From Tropicimonas isoalkanivorans (GTDB lineage: Bacteria > Pseudomonadota > Alphaproteobacteria > Rhodobacterales > Rhodobacteraceae), in the NCBI RefSeq assembly GCF_900112335.1, contig NZ_FOLG01000010.1, positions 62,001-126,000 of the forward strand: a stretch of DNA of 64,000 bases. The letters run 5' to 3'. Every line of letters begins with the position of its first letter. Positions within the stretch are counted from its first letter, which is position 1. The notes under the pieces are model-generated. The model ran no database searches, was not told where the DNA came from, and saw nothing but the letters and a program-made list of their open reading frames with translations. Below, piece after piece: positions 57,713-64,000 of this stretch. A program made the translations under genes and the position numbers.

Positions 57713-57738
57713 GACCAAGGGGCTGCCGAGAACCCTAT

Positions 57739-58718
57739 ATGTTCGGCGAGGCGCAGCTCGCAAGTTGGAAGCGCGTGGTGGATGCGGTCCATGCAGAGGG
57801 TGGCCTGATCTTTCCGCAGCTTTGGCATACGGGCATTTCCCGCAAACGCGATAAGGTTCACAATTCCGAGGTGCCCTCGATCGGTCTGTCGCCGTCTCGA
57901 GCGCGCGCCTCGTCGTGGACAAGGGGACGCCGTCCAGGCCGACAGACGTGCCCCACAAAGCGACGGAAAAAGCTCTCGCAGACATCATCCACGCCTTCGG
58001 TGAGGCGGCATACCAAGCCAAACAGACCGGCTTCGACGGAGTTGCTGTCCATGGGGGGCATGGCAATCTCATTCGCAGCAATCAACGGTCTGACCGCTGG
58101 GGCGGATCCCTGACCGACCGCGCCCGCCTGGGTCTCGAGGTCGTTCGCGAGATCCGACGGCGCGTCGGTCCGGTTTTCCCGATCATGTTCCGCTTCTCGC
58201 AATGGGGCTGGGACTATGAGGCAAAGATTGCTGCCAATCCGGCCGAACTCGAAACGTGGCTCGTGCCGTTGGCCGATGCCGGGGTGGATTTCTTCGACGC
58301 TCCGACAAGGCGCTTCTGGCTGCCGGAATTCGAGGGCAGCGACATGAACCTTGCCGGATGGGCCAAGAAGATCACCGGGAAGCTTGCCATGACGGTGGGT
58401 TCCGTCGGGCTGGAGGATCCGCTTGCCGATCCCTTCGCAAAGATCGGTGCAACGACCAATAATCTGGCGGAGCTGATCCGCATGCTTGAACGCGGCGATT
58501 TCGTTCTGGTCGCCGTTGGCCGGGCTTTGCTCGCCAATCCGGATTGGGCAAATATCGTGCGCGACAAACGGTGGGACGCAATCAAGCCGTACGACAGCGG
58601 CCGCCTGTACGAGACGCTTGGTCAAGCACGGCGGCGAAGGGGCGCGCGCGCAATAGGCCCCCCTTCCCTGCCGGATCGGTTCCCGAACCATGCGGCAAAG
58701 CCGTCATATGACAAATAG
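57739..58718 (+). pseudogene. Decayed NADH:flavin oxidoreductase (old-yellow-enzyme family)
   Basis: Two frames together cover the family from about residue 80 to the end. Frame 1 (57739-~57900): MFGEAQLASWKRVVDAVHAE, then GLIFPQLWHTGI. Frame 2 (from ~57915 to 58718): ALADIIHAFGEAAYQAKQTG, FDGVAVHGGHGNLI, PIMFRFSQWGWDY, RRFWLPEFEGSDMNLAGWAK, VLVAVGRALLANPDWA. The N-terminal ~80 residues, including the FMN-binding start, are missing; a frameshift lies near 57900. After HGNLIR, the normally present DQFFW/TNxR stretch is cut so that SNQRSDRWGGS follows directly. It abuts the SDR terminator, suggesting a deletion. Clearly non-functional as a whole. Confidence 0.8.
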
Positions 58719-58884
58719 ACCGTTACGAGAGTCCGTCCGCCCAAAGAGCGCGGCGGTCGTTCCATCGCCCCGTCACCATTGAAACAGCCTGTCTTCTGAA
58801 TATGAATGGTCCGCAAGCGGTCCCGCCGTTGTTCGAGAGACGTGAGACGACTGGGAGAGATCGCCCCGGATCAGGAGGAAACCC

Positions 58885-59781
58885 ATGCGTATTCTGTTCA
58901 CAGGCGGGTCGGGCAAGGCTGGCCGCCATGTCTGCCGGTATCTCAGGGACCAGGGGCACCGCGTAGTAAACGTCGACCTGAAACCGCTCGAAGAGCCGGG
59001 CATCGATAACCTGATCGCCGACATTACCGACAGCGGTGCGATGTTCAACGTCATGACGAGCTATGCCGATTTCGACGAACTGGAGAGCGGCACAGGGGTG
59101 CCAGCCTTCGACGCTGTAGTCCATTTTGCCGCCGTCCCGCGGATATTGATCAACCCCGACCACGAGACGTTCCGCGTTAACACCATCGGCACGTACAACG
59201 TGATCGAGGCTGCGGTGAAGCTCGGCATCCGCAAGGTCGTATTCGCCTCATCGGAGACGACCTATGGCGTTTGCTTCGCCGACGGTGTGGCAGATCCGGA
59301 CTACCTGCCCGTGGACGAGGAGCACGACACCAACCCGATGGACAGTTACGGGCTTTCCAAGGTGGTCAACGAGAAGACCGGTCGGGCCTTCCAGAGGCGC
59401 TCCGGCTTCGACATCTACGGGCTTCGGATTGGCAACGTCATGGAGCCCCACGAATACGCGCGTTTTCCCGGCTTCTTTGCCGATCCGGGCTGTCGCCGGC
59501 GCAACCTCTTCTCATACATCGACGCCCGCGATCTCGGGCAGATCGTGCATCTCTGCCTGAAGGCGGACGGGCTCGGGTTCCAGATCTTCAATGCCGGCAA
59601 CGATACCAACTCGGTGAACCTGCCCGCACGCGAGATTGCCGAGCGCTTCTTCCCCGGGGTGCCGGTGAACGCGGACCTGGGCGAGAACGAGGCGCTCTAT
59701 TCCAATCGGAAGATCAAAGACGTTCTGGGATTTGAAGAGGAACACAATTGGCGCAAATACGTCACCGATGAGGGCGTGTGA
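58885..59781 (+). CDS. NAD-dependent epimerase/dehydratase (extended SDR)
   Basis: 298 aa. The N-terminal NAD loop GGSGKAGRHVCRYLRDQGHR (7-26; GxxGxxG form), the Ser in FASSETTYG near 115, and the YxxxK pair in PMDSYGLSKVVNEKT near 155. Family also seen in GYNVIEAA/RKVVFAS blocks. Related to UDP-glucose 4-epimerases and similar, but shorter; the sugar substrate is unknown. GGAGG precedes ATG at 58885. Isolated gene. Confidence 0.85.
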   Translation: MRILFTGGSGKAGRHVCRYLRDQGHRVVNVDLKPLEEPGIDNLIADITDSGAMFNVMTSYADFDELESGTGVPAFDAVVHFAAVPRILINPDHETFRVNTIGTYNVIEAAVKLGIRKVVFASSETTYGVCFADGVADPDYLPVDEEHDTNPMDSYGLSKVVNEKTGRAFQRRSGFDIYGLRIGNVMEPHEYARFPGFFADPGCRRRNLFSYIDARDLGQIVHLCLKADGLGFQIFNAGNDTNSVNLPAREIAERFFPGVPVNADLGENEALYSNRKIKDVLGFEEEHNWRKYVTDEGV

Positions 59782-59973
59782 CACACACGCCGATCGGCTT
59801 TGTCCAGAACGGGCCAGCGGCCGCTGTGCGCATGGCTTCCTGCATGTCTTGGTCCCGTCGGCCACACTCTGCGTCTCCGTCTGGTCGACTTGAGCAAAGG
59901 GCAACTTGCAGGGCGTGAGAGCGACGCGCTCAACACGTAGTTCAGCCGCCAAGCCACATACTCCGCAACCTGC

Positions 59974-59995
59974 GCATGTCCCAAATGGGACATGC
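59974..59995. promoter_or_regulatory. 22-bp perfect dyad upstream of the membrane-protein gene
   Basis: GCATGTCCCA and TGGGACATGC are separated by AA. ATGTCCCA recurs alone at 60021-60028. The loop is too short for a strong RNA hairpin, and the dyad plus half-site looks like a protein-binding array ahead of the gene at 60063. The unusual LuxR-type regulator gene is its near neighbour. Confidence 0.6.
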
Positions 59996-60062
59996 CACCG
60001 GGATCAAAGTCACCTAATTAATGTCCCATTGTTAGAGGCTTAGTGCGAACGCAAAGGCACCG

Positions 60063-60548
60063 ATGCAGGAATTCGTTGATATGTTTTCGGTGTGGGAGTG
60101 GAGCGGACTGGCTGGCGCCATCATCTACGCGGCGTCCTACATCCTGACCTCTCTGGACCGGCTGCCGAGCCAGTCACCGCATTTCTACGTCGTCAAACTG
60201 GTGGCTGCGATCTTGGTGATGATCAGCCTAGTGGAGCAGTACAACCTCGCCACGGTCCTCATTCAGACTTTCTTTATCGTGATCTCGGTCTTCGGGATCG
60301 CGAGGCACCTTGGGGCCCGGCAGCGTCGCATTGCCTATGAGCGATCCCTTCACGGCTTCGGCTCGCAAATCTCATCGGACGGGCTTCAAGATGAGCGATT
60401 GATCTGCCTGCCGGGCGATCTGGCCCACCAATCGGACGCTCCGGCGGGCGTACCCCTGTTCAGCAGAATTCGGCCACACGATCCAAGAGAAGGCCAGGGG
60501 TGTCGAAGACAAGAAGCTGACCGCCGCCATCGACTTCCTCGAGGGTGA
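60063..60548 (+). CDS. Small membrane protein, CBU_0592-like domain
   Basis: 161 aa. Residues 1-90 resemble the CBU_0592 domain: GAIIYAASYILTSLDRLPSQ, then VVKLVAAILVMISLVEQYNL and LIQTFFIVISVFGIARHLGA, three membrane helices. The C-terminal ~65 residues are charged and unlike the family; the last 89 nt overlap the convergent LuxR/hydrolase gene, so the true end could be earlier. Function unknown. A perfect dyad lies 68 bp before the start. Confidence 0.7.
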   Translation: MQEFVDMFSVWEWSGLAGAIIYAASYILTSLDRLPSQSPHFYVVKLVAAILVMISLVEQYNLATVLIQTFFIVISVFGIARHLGARQRRIAYERSLHGFGSQISSDGLQDERLICLPGDLAHQSDAPAGVPLFSRIRPHDPREGQGCRRQEADRRHRLPRG

Positions 60549-62205
60549 TACCCGGAAATCTGTCGACGAACCGCCGGACGTCCGAGATTCGTGTAGCAAG
60601 ATCCGCTGTGCCGTGAATGTGCAGTGACGGGACACCCGCCGCGGCGACCTTCTCCACGTATTGCGACCAATCGGTGACGATCTGGACCGAATCCGTGAAG
60701 ACACCAAAGTAGCTCTGCCGTGTTCCGAAGTGGATACTGCGGCGGAGGAAATCGGCCAGGTCAGGCCGATCCACAACAGCGCGATCGCGGGCACCATCCT
60801 TGAAAAGAGTCCTGAGGAACTCGGTCTCGCCCTGTGCCTCGATCTGCTGGAGCCCCGCACGAAAAAGCGGTGGCGCCATCTCCGGCGCGAACCGCATCAG
60901 AAAACAGATGGTTCGTTGCGTGGGTGGCATCTTGGCAAACTGCCCGACGGTGAGGGCGGGCAGAATTGCGCCCGCGTGGACGAGCCCGGTGAAGCGGTCC
61001 GGCATCGCTGCAGCGAGGGAGTAACCGTAGACAGTACCCGCCGCGAAAGAGAGCAAGGGGAGTTTCCCGATTCCGTAGTGGTCAAGAAGAAAGGCGATAT
61101 CCTGCACGAGGCGATCGGGCTCTTGTGCGGCATTGGTCGGGGGCACCGGATCGGACAATCCAAAATTTGGTCGTGACGGCGCGATCAACCTCAAGCCATT
61201 CCTGTTTAGGGCGAGCTGACCCTCGGGTGGGAGCTCTGTCCCGAACAGTTGGCCGTGAATGTACAGGACAGGGCGCCCATGCTTGGGCCCCTGGAGGCGC
61301 ACCTCGAGCGCCCGTCCATCCGGGAGGGTCAGCATATCGACCTCTTGCTCCGGCCGTGCGTCTTCCGTGGCGTGCGTTGCAACGTTCCCGGCGATCAGCG
61401 CAACGAGCCTGTTAAGATTGGCAAGCGTCCCGGCATTGGTCTTCGAGAGGACCGACTTCGCCTGATTGCGGACCGTGCCGACAGATCGTCCTGAGGCTTC
61501 CGCGATCTCTGACACGTTCCGACCGAGCGCCAAGGCGCGAAGCACACGGAGTTCTGCCGGGGTCAGTGCGAAGGAGGCGTGCAAGGAAGCTTCGAGCGTT
61601 TTGCTCCATTCGACCTGCAGCGTGTCGACGATCAGATAAAGCTGCTGTTCCACCGCGCTGTGGACCGTCCGAGCCGCAAGGTGGAAGTTGTCCCCGCGAA
61701 AGATACGCAAGGCCACATCGCTGCCGTCCTTCTCATAGCTCGCGACACAGGAGCGGAATGCACGCTCGTCATCCGCGTAAAGCTGCCGCGCCAAAGCGTC
61801 GATTGAGGGTCGCGCAGTGCCCAGCAGTTGCGACGCGGCAGCACTGCGCGCAACGATGGCGCCGCTCCGATCTATCAGCACAGCCACGCCGCGCCGCTCC
61901 GCAACACGGGCATGAAGCCCACCGGCCAAGTGATGCCCGGCCTTCTGCAGCAGAATGCGATTCATCCGGTCGAAATGGCGTGCGAGCCCTTGGTCGGAGA
62001 GAAACGCACCGATCTCCAAGGTTTCGAAGTGCTCTATGTTCCAGGAATTCAGGACCGTGGCTTCGAGGTAGCGACGCAAAACATCGATGAACTCCACATA
62101 CGCGCCGGCGTCCGCCGCGGCTTCGTACATGGCGGAAACGAGGCGGTCGCGGTCGAATTCGGACTCGAAGAACTCAGGGGTGCTACCGGAACTTGCAAAG
62201 GTCAA
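60460..62205 (-). CDS. LuxR-type regulator with C-terminal pseudo-alpha/beta-hydrolase domain
   Basis: 581 aa. Residues ~100-205 look PAS-like (VLIDRSGAIVARSAAASQLL...). Residues ~214-268 form a LuxR/GerE HTH: LTPAELRVLRALALGRNVSE, then IAEASGRSVGTVRNQAKSVL. Residues ~291-581 are an alpha/beta-hydrolase fold: PVLYIHGQLFG (oxyanion strand), the nucleophile elbow, then HGTADLATRI and the C-terminal GGGQLL. At the elbow, where GxSxG is expected, the sequence is S386-F-A388-A-G390, so the nucleophile is Ala. The expected catalytic His (GH in GHfxxxE) is Gln563; only the acid Asp535 remains. It is therefore probably a ligand sensor, not an enzyme. The HTH sits in the middle, unlike most LuxR solos. 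Convergent with the small membrane-protein gene. Confidence 0.85.
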   Translation of the reverse strand: MTFASSGSTPEFFESEFDRDRLVSAMYEAAADAGAYVEFIDVLRRYLEATVLNSWNIEHFETLEIGAFLSDQGLARHFDRMNRILLQKAGHHLAGGLHARVAERRGVAVLIDRSGAIVARSAAASQLLGTARPSIDALARQLYADDERAFRSCVASYEKDGSDVALRIFRGDNFHLAARTVHSAVEQQLYLIVDTLQVEWSKTLEASLHASFALTPAELRVLRALALGRNVSEIAEASGRSVGTVRNQAKSVLSKTNAGTLANLNRLVALIAGNVATHATEDARPEQEVDMLTLPDGRALEVRLQGPKHGRPVLYIHGQLFGTELPPEGQLALNRNGLRLIAPSRPNFGLSDPVPPTNAAQEPDRLVQDIAFLLDHYGIGKLPLLSFAAGTVYGYSLAAAMPDRFTGLVHAGAILPALTVGQFAKMPPTQRTICFLMRFAPEMAPPLFRAGLQQIEAQGETEFLRTLFKDGARDRAVVDRPDLADFLRRSIHFGTRQSYFGVFTDSVQIVTDWSQYVEKVAAAGVPSLHIHGTADLATRISDVRRFVDRFPGITLEEVDGGGQLLVFDTPGLLLDRVAEFC

Positions 62206-62812
62206 TGGTCGGCTGCCTCATCGAAATTCTTCCCAGTATGGACGGAACCGTCAGGAAAACCACGAAATATTGGGCTGCCGACGGATCAAATCGACTCCGG
62301 AATAGTCCTGACAGACCCCTGATGATTGTGGAAGCCTGCCTCTCAGCGACTTGGTATGCGGCCCATCAACTTTCTTCTGCTGGACGTACACGCCATACAT
62401 CCAAGCAGCCTTCCTGGAGAATCGAAGCCACGGGCACGAAACCGGCGCGATCTTACGAGGTTCCTGAACCATCATTCCGGCTTCCATGCGTCCGAGAGCC
62501 CGCCCAGGGACGTGCAGACCTCGACGCGATGCTACATTGAAGCCTGTCATAGTCGACCTTCCAACAGGCTCCCAAAGTAGTCCACGTCTTCCTAACGCTG
62601 GCTGCTCACCAGTCTGGCCTCAAGGGTCATTGACCTTCCACCTGCTGTAAGTCCCAGACTGAACAACTAGCGATCGTTTCACGTACAGTCGGAAGAGCGC
62701 TTCGAAGAATATTGGCGGCACTCCATACAGGACCATCGCACTCCCGATCTGTCGAAACGTGCCGCCCTACGCGCGCCCCCGCCGTCGGGCGCCAACACAC
62801 GAGAAAGCGGAA
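62206..62812. other. Intergenic region ahead of the copper P-type ATPase
   Basis: 607 bp with no supported gene. Contains the MerR-type promoter at 62630-62660. The part at 62660-62812 would be the 5' untranslated region of the ATPase gene. Confidence 0.5.
62630..62660 (+). promoter_or_regulatory. CueR/HmrR-type copper-responsive promoter
   Basis: TTGACC (62630-62635), then a 19-nt spacer, then CAGACT (62655-62660). The over-long spacer with the CTTCC...GTAAG dyad inside it is the mark of MerR-family promoters. The element is very like the CueR-controlled copA promoter (TTGACCTTCC...). It sits upstream of the copper-type ATPase. The regulator gene itself is not in the window. Confidence 0.7.
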
Positions 62813-64000
62813 TGATAGCGCGGAAGAAACAGGAGAATGCGGCGGCGGAATATGTCTGCCCGATGCACCCCGACGTCCGGCAGGACACTCCCGGCGATTG
62901 CCCGAAATGCGGAATGACATTGGTGCTCCACAGGTCCGACATCGGGCACGAGGGTCACCCGGGCGATGCCTCCGAAGCTCCCAAGAGCAACTACGACACC
63001 GTACCAAGTGACCATGACGGCCCGGTGTACACCTGCCCGATGCACCCGCAGGTGCGGCAGGTCGAGCCGGGATCCTGCCCGATTTGCGGTATGGGGCTGG
63101 AATTGGAGGCCGCCACAGTCGAGGACACCGGGCCGAACCCGGAGTTGGTGGACTTTACCCGGCGTTTCTGGGTTGGCGCCGCTCTGACCGTGCCCCTGCT
63201 GGTGCTGGCCATGGGACCGATGGTTGGGTTGGGCGGCATTCGCGAGGCGCTTGGCGCGCGCGCCGCGCTGTGGGCTGAGTTCGCACTGGGTACGCCTGTG
63301 GTGTTCTGGAGCGGCTGGCCGTTCCTAATACGCGGCTGGAATTCCTTCCGTTCGATGAATCTGAACATGTTTTCTTTGATCGCCATGGGTGTATCGGCGG
63401 CCTGGATCTTCAGCACGGTGGCCGTGCTTGCTCCAGGCGTCTTTCCTCAAGGGTTCCGCGATGCAGAGGGACATGTCGCCGTCTATTTCGAGGCCGCGGC
63501 GGTGATCGTCGTTCTTGTCCTGCTGGGTCAGCTTATGGAGTTGCGCGCCCGGGAAGGCACGGGCAAGGCGATCCGGGCGCTGCTCGACATGGCCGCCAAG
63601 ACCGCACTCGTTATCCGGAACGACGGCAGCGAGGAGGAGATTCCGCTGGAAGAGGTACATGTCGGAGATCGCATCCGCGTCCGGCCCGGCGACAAGGTGC
63701 CGGTGGACGGAACGGTTGTCGCCGGTCGCTCCTCGGTCGACGAGAGCATGATCAGCGGCGAACCTGTCCCATTGGAAAAGGTCGTGGGAGACCCGGTGAC
63801 CGGAGCTACGATCAACGGAACCGGCAGCATGGTGATCGAGGCAGAACGCGTCGGCGCCGATACCGTGCTGAGCCAGATCGTCCAAATGGTGGCACAGGCC
63901 CAACGCAGCCGTGCCCCGATCCAGAAGTACGCCGACAAGGTGGCGGGATGGTTTGTCCCCGCCGTGATCGGAGTGGCCATTCTCGCCTTTATCGGCTGGG
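62813..64000 (+). CDS. Copper-type heavy-metal-translocating P-type ATPase, partial (5' end)
   Basis: The first 396 codons are visible and remain open to the window edge. Two metal-binding domains of the YHS-like heavy-metal-binding type lie first: [20 protein letters not shown]...CGM near 13-37 and [20 protein letters not shown]...CGM near 70-95. They have CPMHP...CPxCGM signatures and no ferredoxin-like HMA domain. Membrane helices follow from ~118. An actuator-domain block lies near 265-330 ([36 protein letters not shown], where SGEP is the dephosphorylation motif). The CPx and DKTG sites lie beyond the window. It would export Cu+ (or Ag+) across the inner membrane, under the CueR-like promoter upstream. 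Confidence 0.92.

Follow-up and report, generated by a model that had tools for sequence, protein, structure and literature searches.

The window, by which we mean the whole stretch of 64,000 nucleotides of Tropicimonas isoalkanivorans DNA that was analysed, carries on its reverse strand the gene of a predicted regulator whose parts are listed in Table 1. Its open reading frame starts with TTG. As the first ATG (residue 26) falls inside a helix predicted by AlphaFold2, TTG is the likely start. A 161-aa open reading frame (60063-60548, +) converges on the 3' end of the regulator gene, overlaps it by 89 bases and has no Pfam match at E<=0.001. The divergent neighbour (62812-64000, +, continuing in L136:8813-11140) encodes a P-type (E1-E2) ATPase with two heavy-metal-binding (HMBD) stretches, and no sign that it is a target of the regulator was found in the evidence gathered. 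Farther along, at 57730-58571 (+), lies what looks like a broken gene, the remnant of an NADH:flavin oxidoreductase in two overlapping frames that match profile positions 70-119 and 139-339 of 342. A search of window positions 58000-64000 against Rfam gave no match at the gathering threshold.

Table 1. Coordinates of the regulator gene, its domains and its triad positions in the window
Feature	Residues	Window positions	Strand	Basis
LuxR-type one-component regulator with predicted C-terminal pseudo-alpha/beta-hydrolase	581 aa	60460..62205	(-)	Open reading frame and translation
N-terminal helical segment	12-89	61939..62172	(-)	AlphaFold2 secondary structure
PAS-fold domain	about 97-195	61621..61917	(-)	Model topology, Foldseek, Pfam in relatives
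LuxR/GerE helix-turn-helix	214-264	61414..61566	(-)	Pfam GerE
Alpha/beta-hydrolase-fold domain	288-580	60466..61344	(-)	Pfam Abhydrolase_1, Foldseek
Cap over pocket	about 416-515	60661..60960	(-)	Conservation; close pairs of relatives
Nucleophile-elbow position, catalytic Ser lost	Ala388	61042..61044	(-)	Alignments and model
Acid position, kept	Asp535	60601..60603	(-)	Conservation and model
Catalytic His position, His lost	Gln563	60517..60519	(-)	Alignments, conservation, model

The protein belongs to the alpha/beta-hydrolase fold superfamily, Abhydrolase_1 being detected by Pfam over residues 312-568 (35.1 bits for a cut-off of 25.8). Its own GerE match at residues 214-264 is sub-threshold (19.9 for a cut-off of 23.5), but all 30 relatives in an alignment named A1 display GerE at E<=0.01, which argues for a LuxR/GerE helix-turn-helix (HTH) regulator. 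In the same alignment, Abhydrolase_1 was found in 25 relatives out of 30, and PAS_4 and MLTR_LBD in five each. Neither of the last two, nor any other Pfam PAS family, matched the window protein itself, and Pfam detected no autoinducer-binding domain in it at E<=1. The AlphaFold2 model of the full protein (mean pLDDT 86.7) comprises helices, a PAS-like part, an HTH and a hydrolase fold. When residues 12-205 were modelled separately (pLDDT 85.7), the order of the elements was that of a PAS domain, and Foldseek ranked PAS domains highest, at modest scores (best E 3.9e-05); this topology and these scores suggest a PAS-domain one-component regulator. For the hydrolase part, the top Foldseek match was 9wlv, an alpha/beta-hydrolase from Microlunatus (E 1.2e-16, TM 0.85 by target length), which is the nearest solved relative by sequence as well as by fold. 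Among the matches listed, most of the other top solved relatives belong to the arylesterases, haloperoxidases, epoxide hydrolases or dehalogenases. Pfam, the AlphaFold2 model and Foldseek thus bear out the three-part layout (PAS, HTH, hydrolase) given in a preliminary description of this DNA, and the separate model and its best matches support the PAS-like N-terminus proposed there.

The same description had claimed that the hydrolase domain has lost its catalytic Ser and His and retains its Asp. A direct check confirmed its numbering (S386 F387 A388 A389 G390, D535 and Q563), and we also read G562 and, in the oxyanion region, H317 G318. In the alignment with 9wlv, the Ser of the GWSGG elbow stands opposite A388 and the His opposite Q563. 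Moreover, five aligned intact fusions of the same layout (Ser-Asp-His) place their Ser in the 388 column and their His in the 563 column. In the AlphaFold2 model, A388 is found between strand 382-387 and helix 390-400, D535 after strand 527-532 and Q563 after strand 553-558; such post-strand places are the usual triad positions in alpha/beta-hydrolases. As a control, we read the other Abhydrolase_1 genes found in the same genome at E<=1e-10, a threshold favouring well-kept genes. All 13 retain the His and a nucleophile, which is Ser in 11 and Cys in 2; 11 of the genes were read in one alignment and two by motif only. A misalignment of the triad is ruled out by the agreement of 9wlv, the intact fusions and the model, and by the nucleophile and His that could be read in the 13 genes of the same genome. 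A388 and Q563 do occupy the Ser and His positions, and the claimed loss of both residues next to a retained Asp535 stands. In these alignments, conservation excludes chance as the cause of this reading. As judged from alignments and model, the window protein lacks the full set of nucleophile, acid and His at the triad positions, and by this criterion does not qualify as an alpha/beta-hydrolase enzyme.

We then looked at how this type of protein is distributed. A first scan of genome contigs, seeded with the single window protein, gave no matches. Matches at E<=1e-20 were obtained in 35 out of 194 genomes near that of the window, its own included, and the closest relative found among them shares 47% identity with the window protein. 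In an evenly drawn sample of the window's bacterial family, 95 genomes out of 394 (again with the window's own) match the family profile at E<=1e-40, i.e. about a quarter, some of these matches being only partial. A scan of named genomes yielded 67 loci, a few of them partial; as two conserved peptides from a single subgroup served as its seeds, it is no census. Their titles name Roseovarius, Octadecabacter, Aliiroseovarius, Sulfitobacter, Shimia, Wenxinia and others, one title giving just Alphaproteobacteria. From the titles and the usual placement of the genera, we take these loci to be from Rhodobacterales. At the scale of the phylum, 121 genomes out of 398 match at E<=1e-15; many of these matches cover just the N-terminus and the HTH or just the hydrolase, so this number is not a count of fusions. 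Matches confined to the N-terminus and HTH (about positions 56-272, in frames often of 350-450 aa) are common in the phylum.

Matches were also found in 36 plasmid records, of which 26 are from Pseudosulfitobacter pseudonitzschiae; the others include Ruegeria, Paracoccus, Agrobacterium, Sinorhizobium and Tistrella. The product label of the relatives in the plasmid records is mostly 'alpha/beta hydrolase', which the dead triads do not bear out. Three plasmid-borne loci (L098, L103 and L104, from Ruegeria, Pseudosulfitobacter and Agrobacterium) adjoin or lie near VWA-domain genes, and L103 and L104 display other triad replacements (SDD and SDE).

In A1, Ser is present at position 388 in none of the 30 relatives, and Gln at position 563 in 28, the remaining two having Leu and Phe. 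We extended this survey to 108 distinct same-family proteins, a set from which duplicates and four loci lacking the C-terminus were dropped and some partial matches among the 95 genomes left out. Gln563 was found in 77 of them, His563 in 8, Ser388 in 9 and Asp535 in 97, and the complete Ser-Asp-His triad in three (L240, L241 and L244). Over all aligned rows, Ser-Asp-His is present in 9 out of 189, one of these (L101) being a stand-alone hydrolase without HTH. Ser388 is combined with Gln563 in 13 of the 189 rows, and in 12 out of 125 rows of another alignment, the titles of these 12 loci being Roseovarius for 11 and Rhodobacteraceae for the last. Positions 388 and 563 show a wide range of residues in the rows outside the Gln branches.

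Asp388 is combined with His563 in 7 of the 189 rows (L098, L100, L114, L117, L226, L227 and L235), among them the plasmid protein of Ruegeria sp. TM1040 (L098). Epoxide hydrolases and haloalkane dehalogenases likewise pair an Asp nucleophile with a His, and the seven relatives may have switched to an Asp-nucleophile enzyme within a LuxR regulator. Judging by these residues, some members of the wider clade may use another nucleophile for catalysis, and not every member need be inert.

For the history of the loss, a tree was built from 78 thinned rows (identity above 55% merged), with the triad columns excluded, six loci left out and the stand-alone hydrolase L101 as root. The window protein belongs to a clade of 64 rows (support 99/94), none of which has Ser-Asp-His; Ser388 is present in 5 of them, His563 in 7, Gln563 in 35 and Asp535 in 51. 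The intact fusion L240 neighbours this clade, and intact fusions from another class of the phylum branch farther out; after thinning, L240 also represents L241 and L244, and L120 represents L125. A similar split emerged from an earlier tree of 80 rows, with an outer branch of 15 rows in which five have Ser-Asp-His, one Cys-Asp-His and the rest other replacements. Inner forks are weak in these trees and several rows sit on long branches. Eight intact fusions were identified in total, five from the other class (L120, L125, L127, L132 and L134) and three from the same family (L240, L241 and L244). They have the domain order of the window protein, and the family profile matches over most of its length. 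GerE is over the Pfam cut-off in two of them (L120 and L240) and below it in four (L125, L132, L134 and L244), and no Pfam match for GerE was found in L127 and L241.

The A1 columns, the survey of 108 proteins and the tree rule out a lone mutant. The preliminary description had left to a survey of homologues the question of whether the loss is fixed, an intact triad in them being the result that would speak for such a mutant. Intact homologues do exist, in the same family (3 out of 108) and in another class, but all branch outside the clade of the window protein, within which the absence of the triad is general. The 64-row clade probably gave up classical catalysis at its base or close to it; its triad residues then probably drifted along some branches, and Gln563 became frequent in the large ones. 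The position of intact relatives with this layout, outside the clade, fits an enzyme-to-receptor history such as the one proposed for GID1. Triad loss in the outer branch that holds intact members speaks against a simple history. The loss shared by most of the related regulators suggests an enzyme turned sensor.

The neighbourhood of the gene was compared over 71 loci, where open reading frames were picked crudely, and no conserved partner gene hinting at the ligand was found. A RecN/SMC-type gene lies nearby in 26 of the 71 loci, and others are found with lpxC, an ftsZ-like gene or gcv genes (RecN/SMC, LpxC and GcvT types assigned by Pfam, ftsZ and the other gcv names by eye). These neighbours look like stable chromosomal addresses. 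In the branch of the window protein, neighbour genes differ between members.

Upstream of some relatives, we found a palindrome, YTKACCN4GGTMAA, which is present in 9 out of 119 distinct upstream regions (L015, L017, L028, L038, L041, L045, L062, L083 and L170), at a distance of 30-54 bases from the estimated start. Against the 9 observed, about 0.02 would be expected upstream, given how often the palindrome occurs in eight genomes (39 places), these genomes having been chosen because they carry the palindrome and the motif having been found post hoc from three of the nine sites. Over the eight genomes, the palindrome is mildly commoner than a reversed control pattern (59 vs. 41 strand hits). 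Many of its genome-wide copies may be due to chance, and it is the upstream placement that speaks. With 28 regions around other copies read, all eight genomes show a copy next to a RutR-like TetR gene, an allantoate-type amidohydrolase or both, and a copy precedes deoC in five of the eight. RutR was the best match of all five TetR proteins tested, below the curated cut-offs, while the three deoC genes tested were all over theirs. RutR binds a palindrome of about 16 bases, according to the available part of the source (PMC10891134). We considered the palindrome as the regulator's own operator and rejected this, a RutR-type box being likelier since copies adjoin RutR-like genes and deoC. Some of the relatives' regulator genes may thus belong to a RutR (uracil) or pyrimidine regulon. 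No copy of this palindrome was found upstream of the window regulator gene.

We then investigated the constraint on the different domains. Median dN/dS is lowest in the HTH (0.048) and the cap (0.053), followed by the two core parts of the hydrolase (0.116 and 0.115 for parts 1 and 2) and the PAS part (0.136), as estimated from 35 close pairs (75-97% identity; 33 pairs for the hydrolase sub-regions) that share ancestry and have a dS near 1. In the Gln core group, among pairs with a core identity of 0.3-0.6, the identity of the cap (0.640) exceeds that of the core parts (0.478 and 0.542), and the same holds for the window's branch (0.417 for the cap; 0.377 and 0.363 for the core). The order is reversed in the 15-row branch, five members of which are intact: there the cap (0.203) is below the core parts (0.369 and 0.312). 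The cap is therefore the best conserved part of the hydrolase in the first two groups and the least conserved in the branch rich in intact members, a pattern that we read as a specific shared ligand or interface. The PAS part has an identity of only 0.25-0.30 in the dead groups.

With moderate confidence, we favour a one-component regulator in which the pseudo-hydrolase is a putative ligand sensor. The hydrolase domain would no longer cut by the classical mechanism; a small molecule would bind beneath the conserved cap, and this binding would alter how a presumed dimer of the HTH meets its candidate DNA targets. An ester or lactone, as proposed in the preliminary description, is a candidate for this small molecule. 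The PAS domain may contribute a second input.

The main rival, which we consider unlikely, makes the pseudo-hydrolase a protein-interaction or dimerisation platform and leaves the PAS domain as sole sensor. Dead members of the alpha/beta-hydrolase fold such as NDRG and neuroligin do act as platforms of this kind, the conserved cap could be a protein interface and the PAS fold is a common sensor. Moreover, the N-terminus and HTH seem to work alone, as matches confined to them are common in the phylum. However, the PAS part is the least constrained domain that we measured, the conserved cap is located where hydrolases cover their pocket, and Gln is retained at a pocket position in most members. 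It is improbable that the domain still catalyses by a non-classical route, with turnover of the signal coupled to sensing: the rows with Asp388 and His563, with Ser388 and Gln563 or with Ser-Asp-His lend this some credit, but the window protein lacks both nucleophile and base at the triad positions and its clade is devoid of Ser-Asp-His. Finally, a domain decaying and functionless in the window's species is very improbable, for although the triad is lost and the nearest relative found is so distant that no dN/dS is available for the window's very branch, Asp535, the HG of the oxyanion region and the cap residues are kept, related branches are under strong constraint, and a Gln at the His position in 77 out of 108 proteins is unlike plain decay.

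The favoured reading, a pseudo-hydrolase sensing a ligand, can be compared with known systems. RsbQ is a signalling protein with the alpha/beta-hydrolase fold. So are DAD2/D14 and KAI2, in the part of the literature source available (PMC3531792), and DAD2/D14 carries the whole triad, unlike the window protein. According to the same partial source, GID1 has lost its active-site His and its enzyme activity, its Ser and Asp contact the hormone, and it is thought to be derived from an active hydrolase of the hormone-sensitive lipases (PMC3531792). The likeness lies in an alpha/beta-hydrolase fold that has a lid above its pocket and would have become a receptor as catalytic residues were lost (PMC3531792, available part). 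However, GID1 keeps Ser and Asp whereas the window protein has lost Ser as well as His, and GID1 acts with DELLA proteins whereas the pseudo-hydrolase is fused to its own DNA-binding domain. The parallel with GID1 drawn in the preliminary description holds for the enzyme-to-receptor type of history and departs from it in the loss of Ser. By analogy, the window protein may work like GID1, with a putative ligand-sensing role, and it is not a GID1 member; our best reading is that the likeness is one of kind of change and not of descent. More tentatively, and with somewhat less than even confidence, we propose that a catalytic fusion of LuxR and hydrolase gave rise to a large family of bacterial one-component receptors by losing its triad while its pocket was retained, as a counterpart of GID1.

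With LuxR-type regulators, including LuxR solos, the window protein has a GerE-type HTH in common, but here the HTH is central and the putative sensor C-terminal. It also differs from AHL-type LuxR receptors by a PAS-type fold before the HTH, in place of an autoinducer-binding domain (Pfam). In the literature searched, from which subscription journals were mostly outside coverage, and among the titles and abstract openings listed there, no bacterial LuxR-hydrolase fusion or inactive hydrolase receptor is described. The section on added domains (2.9) of a 2024 review on alpha/beta-hydrolases names no DNA-binding fusion (PMC11878206), and 'hydrolase' at the start of a word was not found in the available text of two LuxR surveys (PMC3466318, PMC10134790). 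Should the domain be a sensor, this would indicate an as yet uncharacterised signal among the Rhodobacterales and their relatives.

As for its nearest counterparts, 9wlv is a stand-alone protein with the GWSGG elbow and the His, whereas the window protein is a fusion with neither residue. The intact LuxR-hydrolase fusions share its domain order and differ by Ser-Asp-His and by their position outside its clade. With intact and dead living relatives of one layout, the step from enzyme to receptor would be testable in bacteria. A fusion of reverse order, with the alpha/beta-hydrolase followed by the GerE HTH, was also observed near the gene of the closest relative (L002), at L137:5672-6745 (-), and there Cys, Asp and His are in place by eye.
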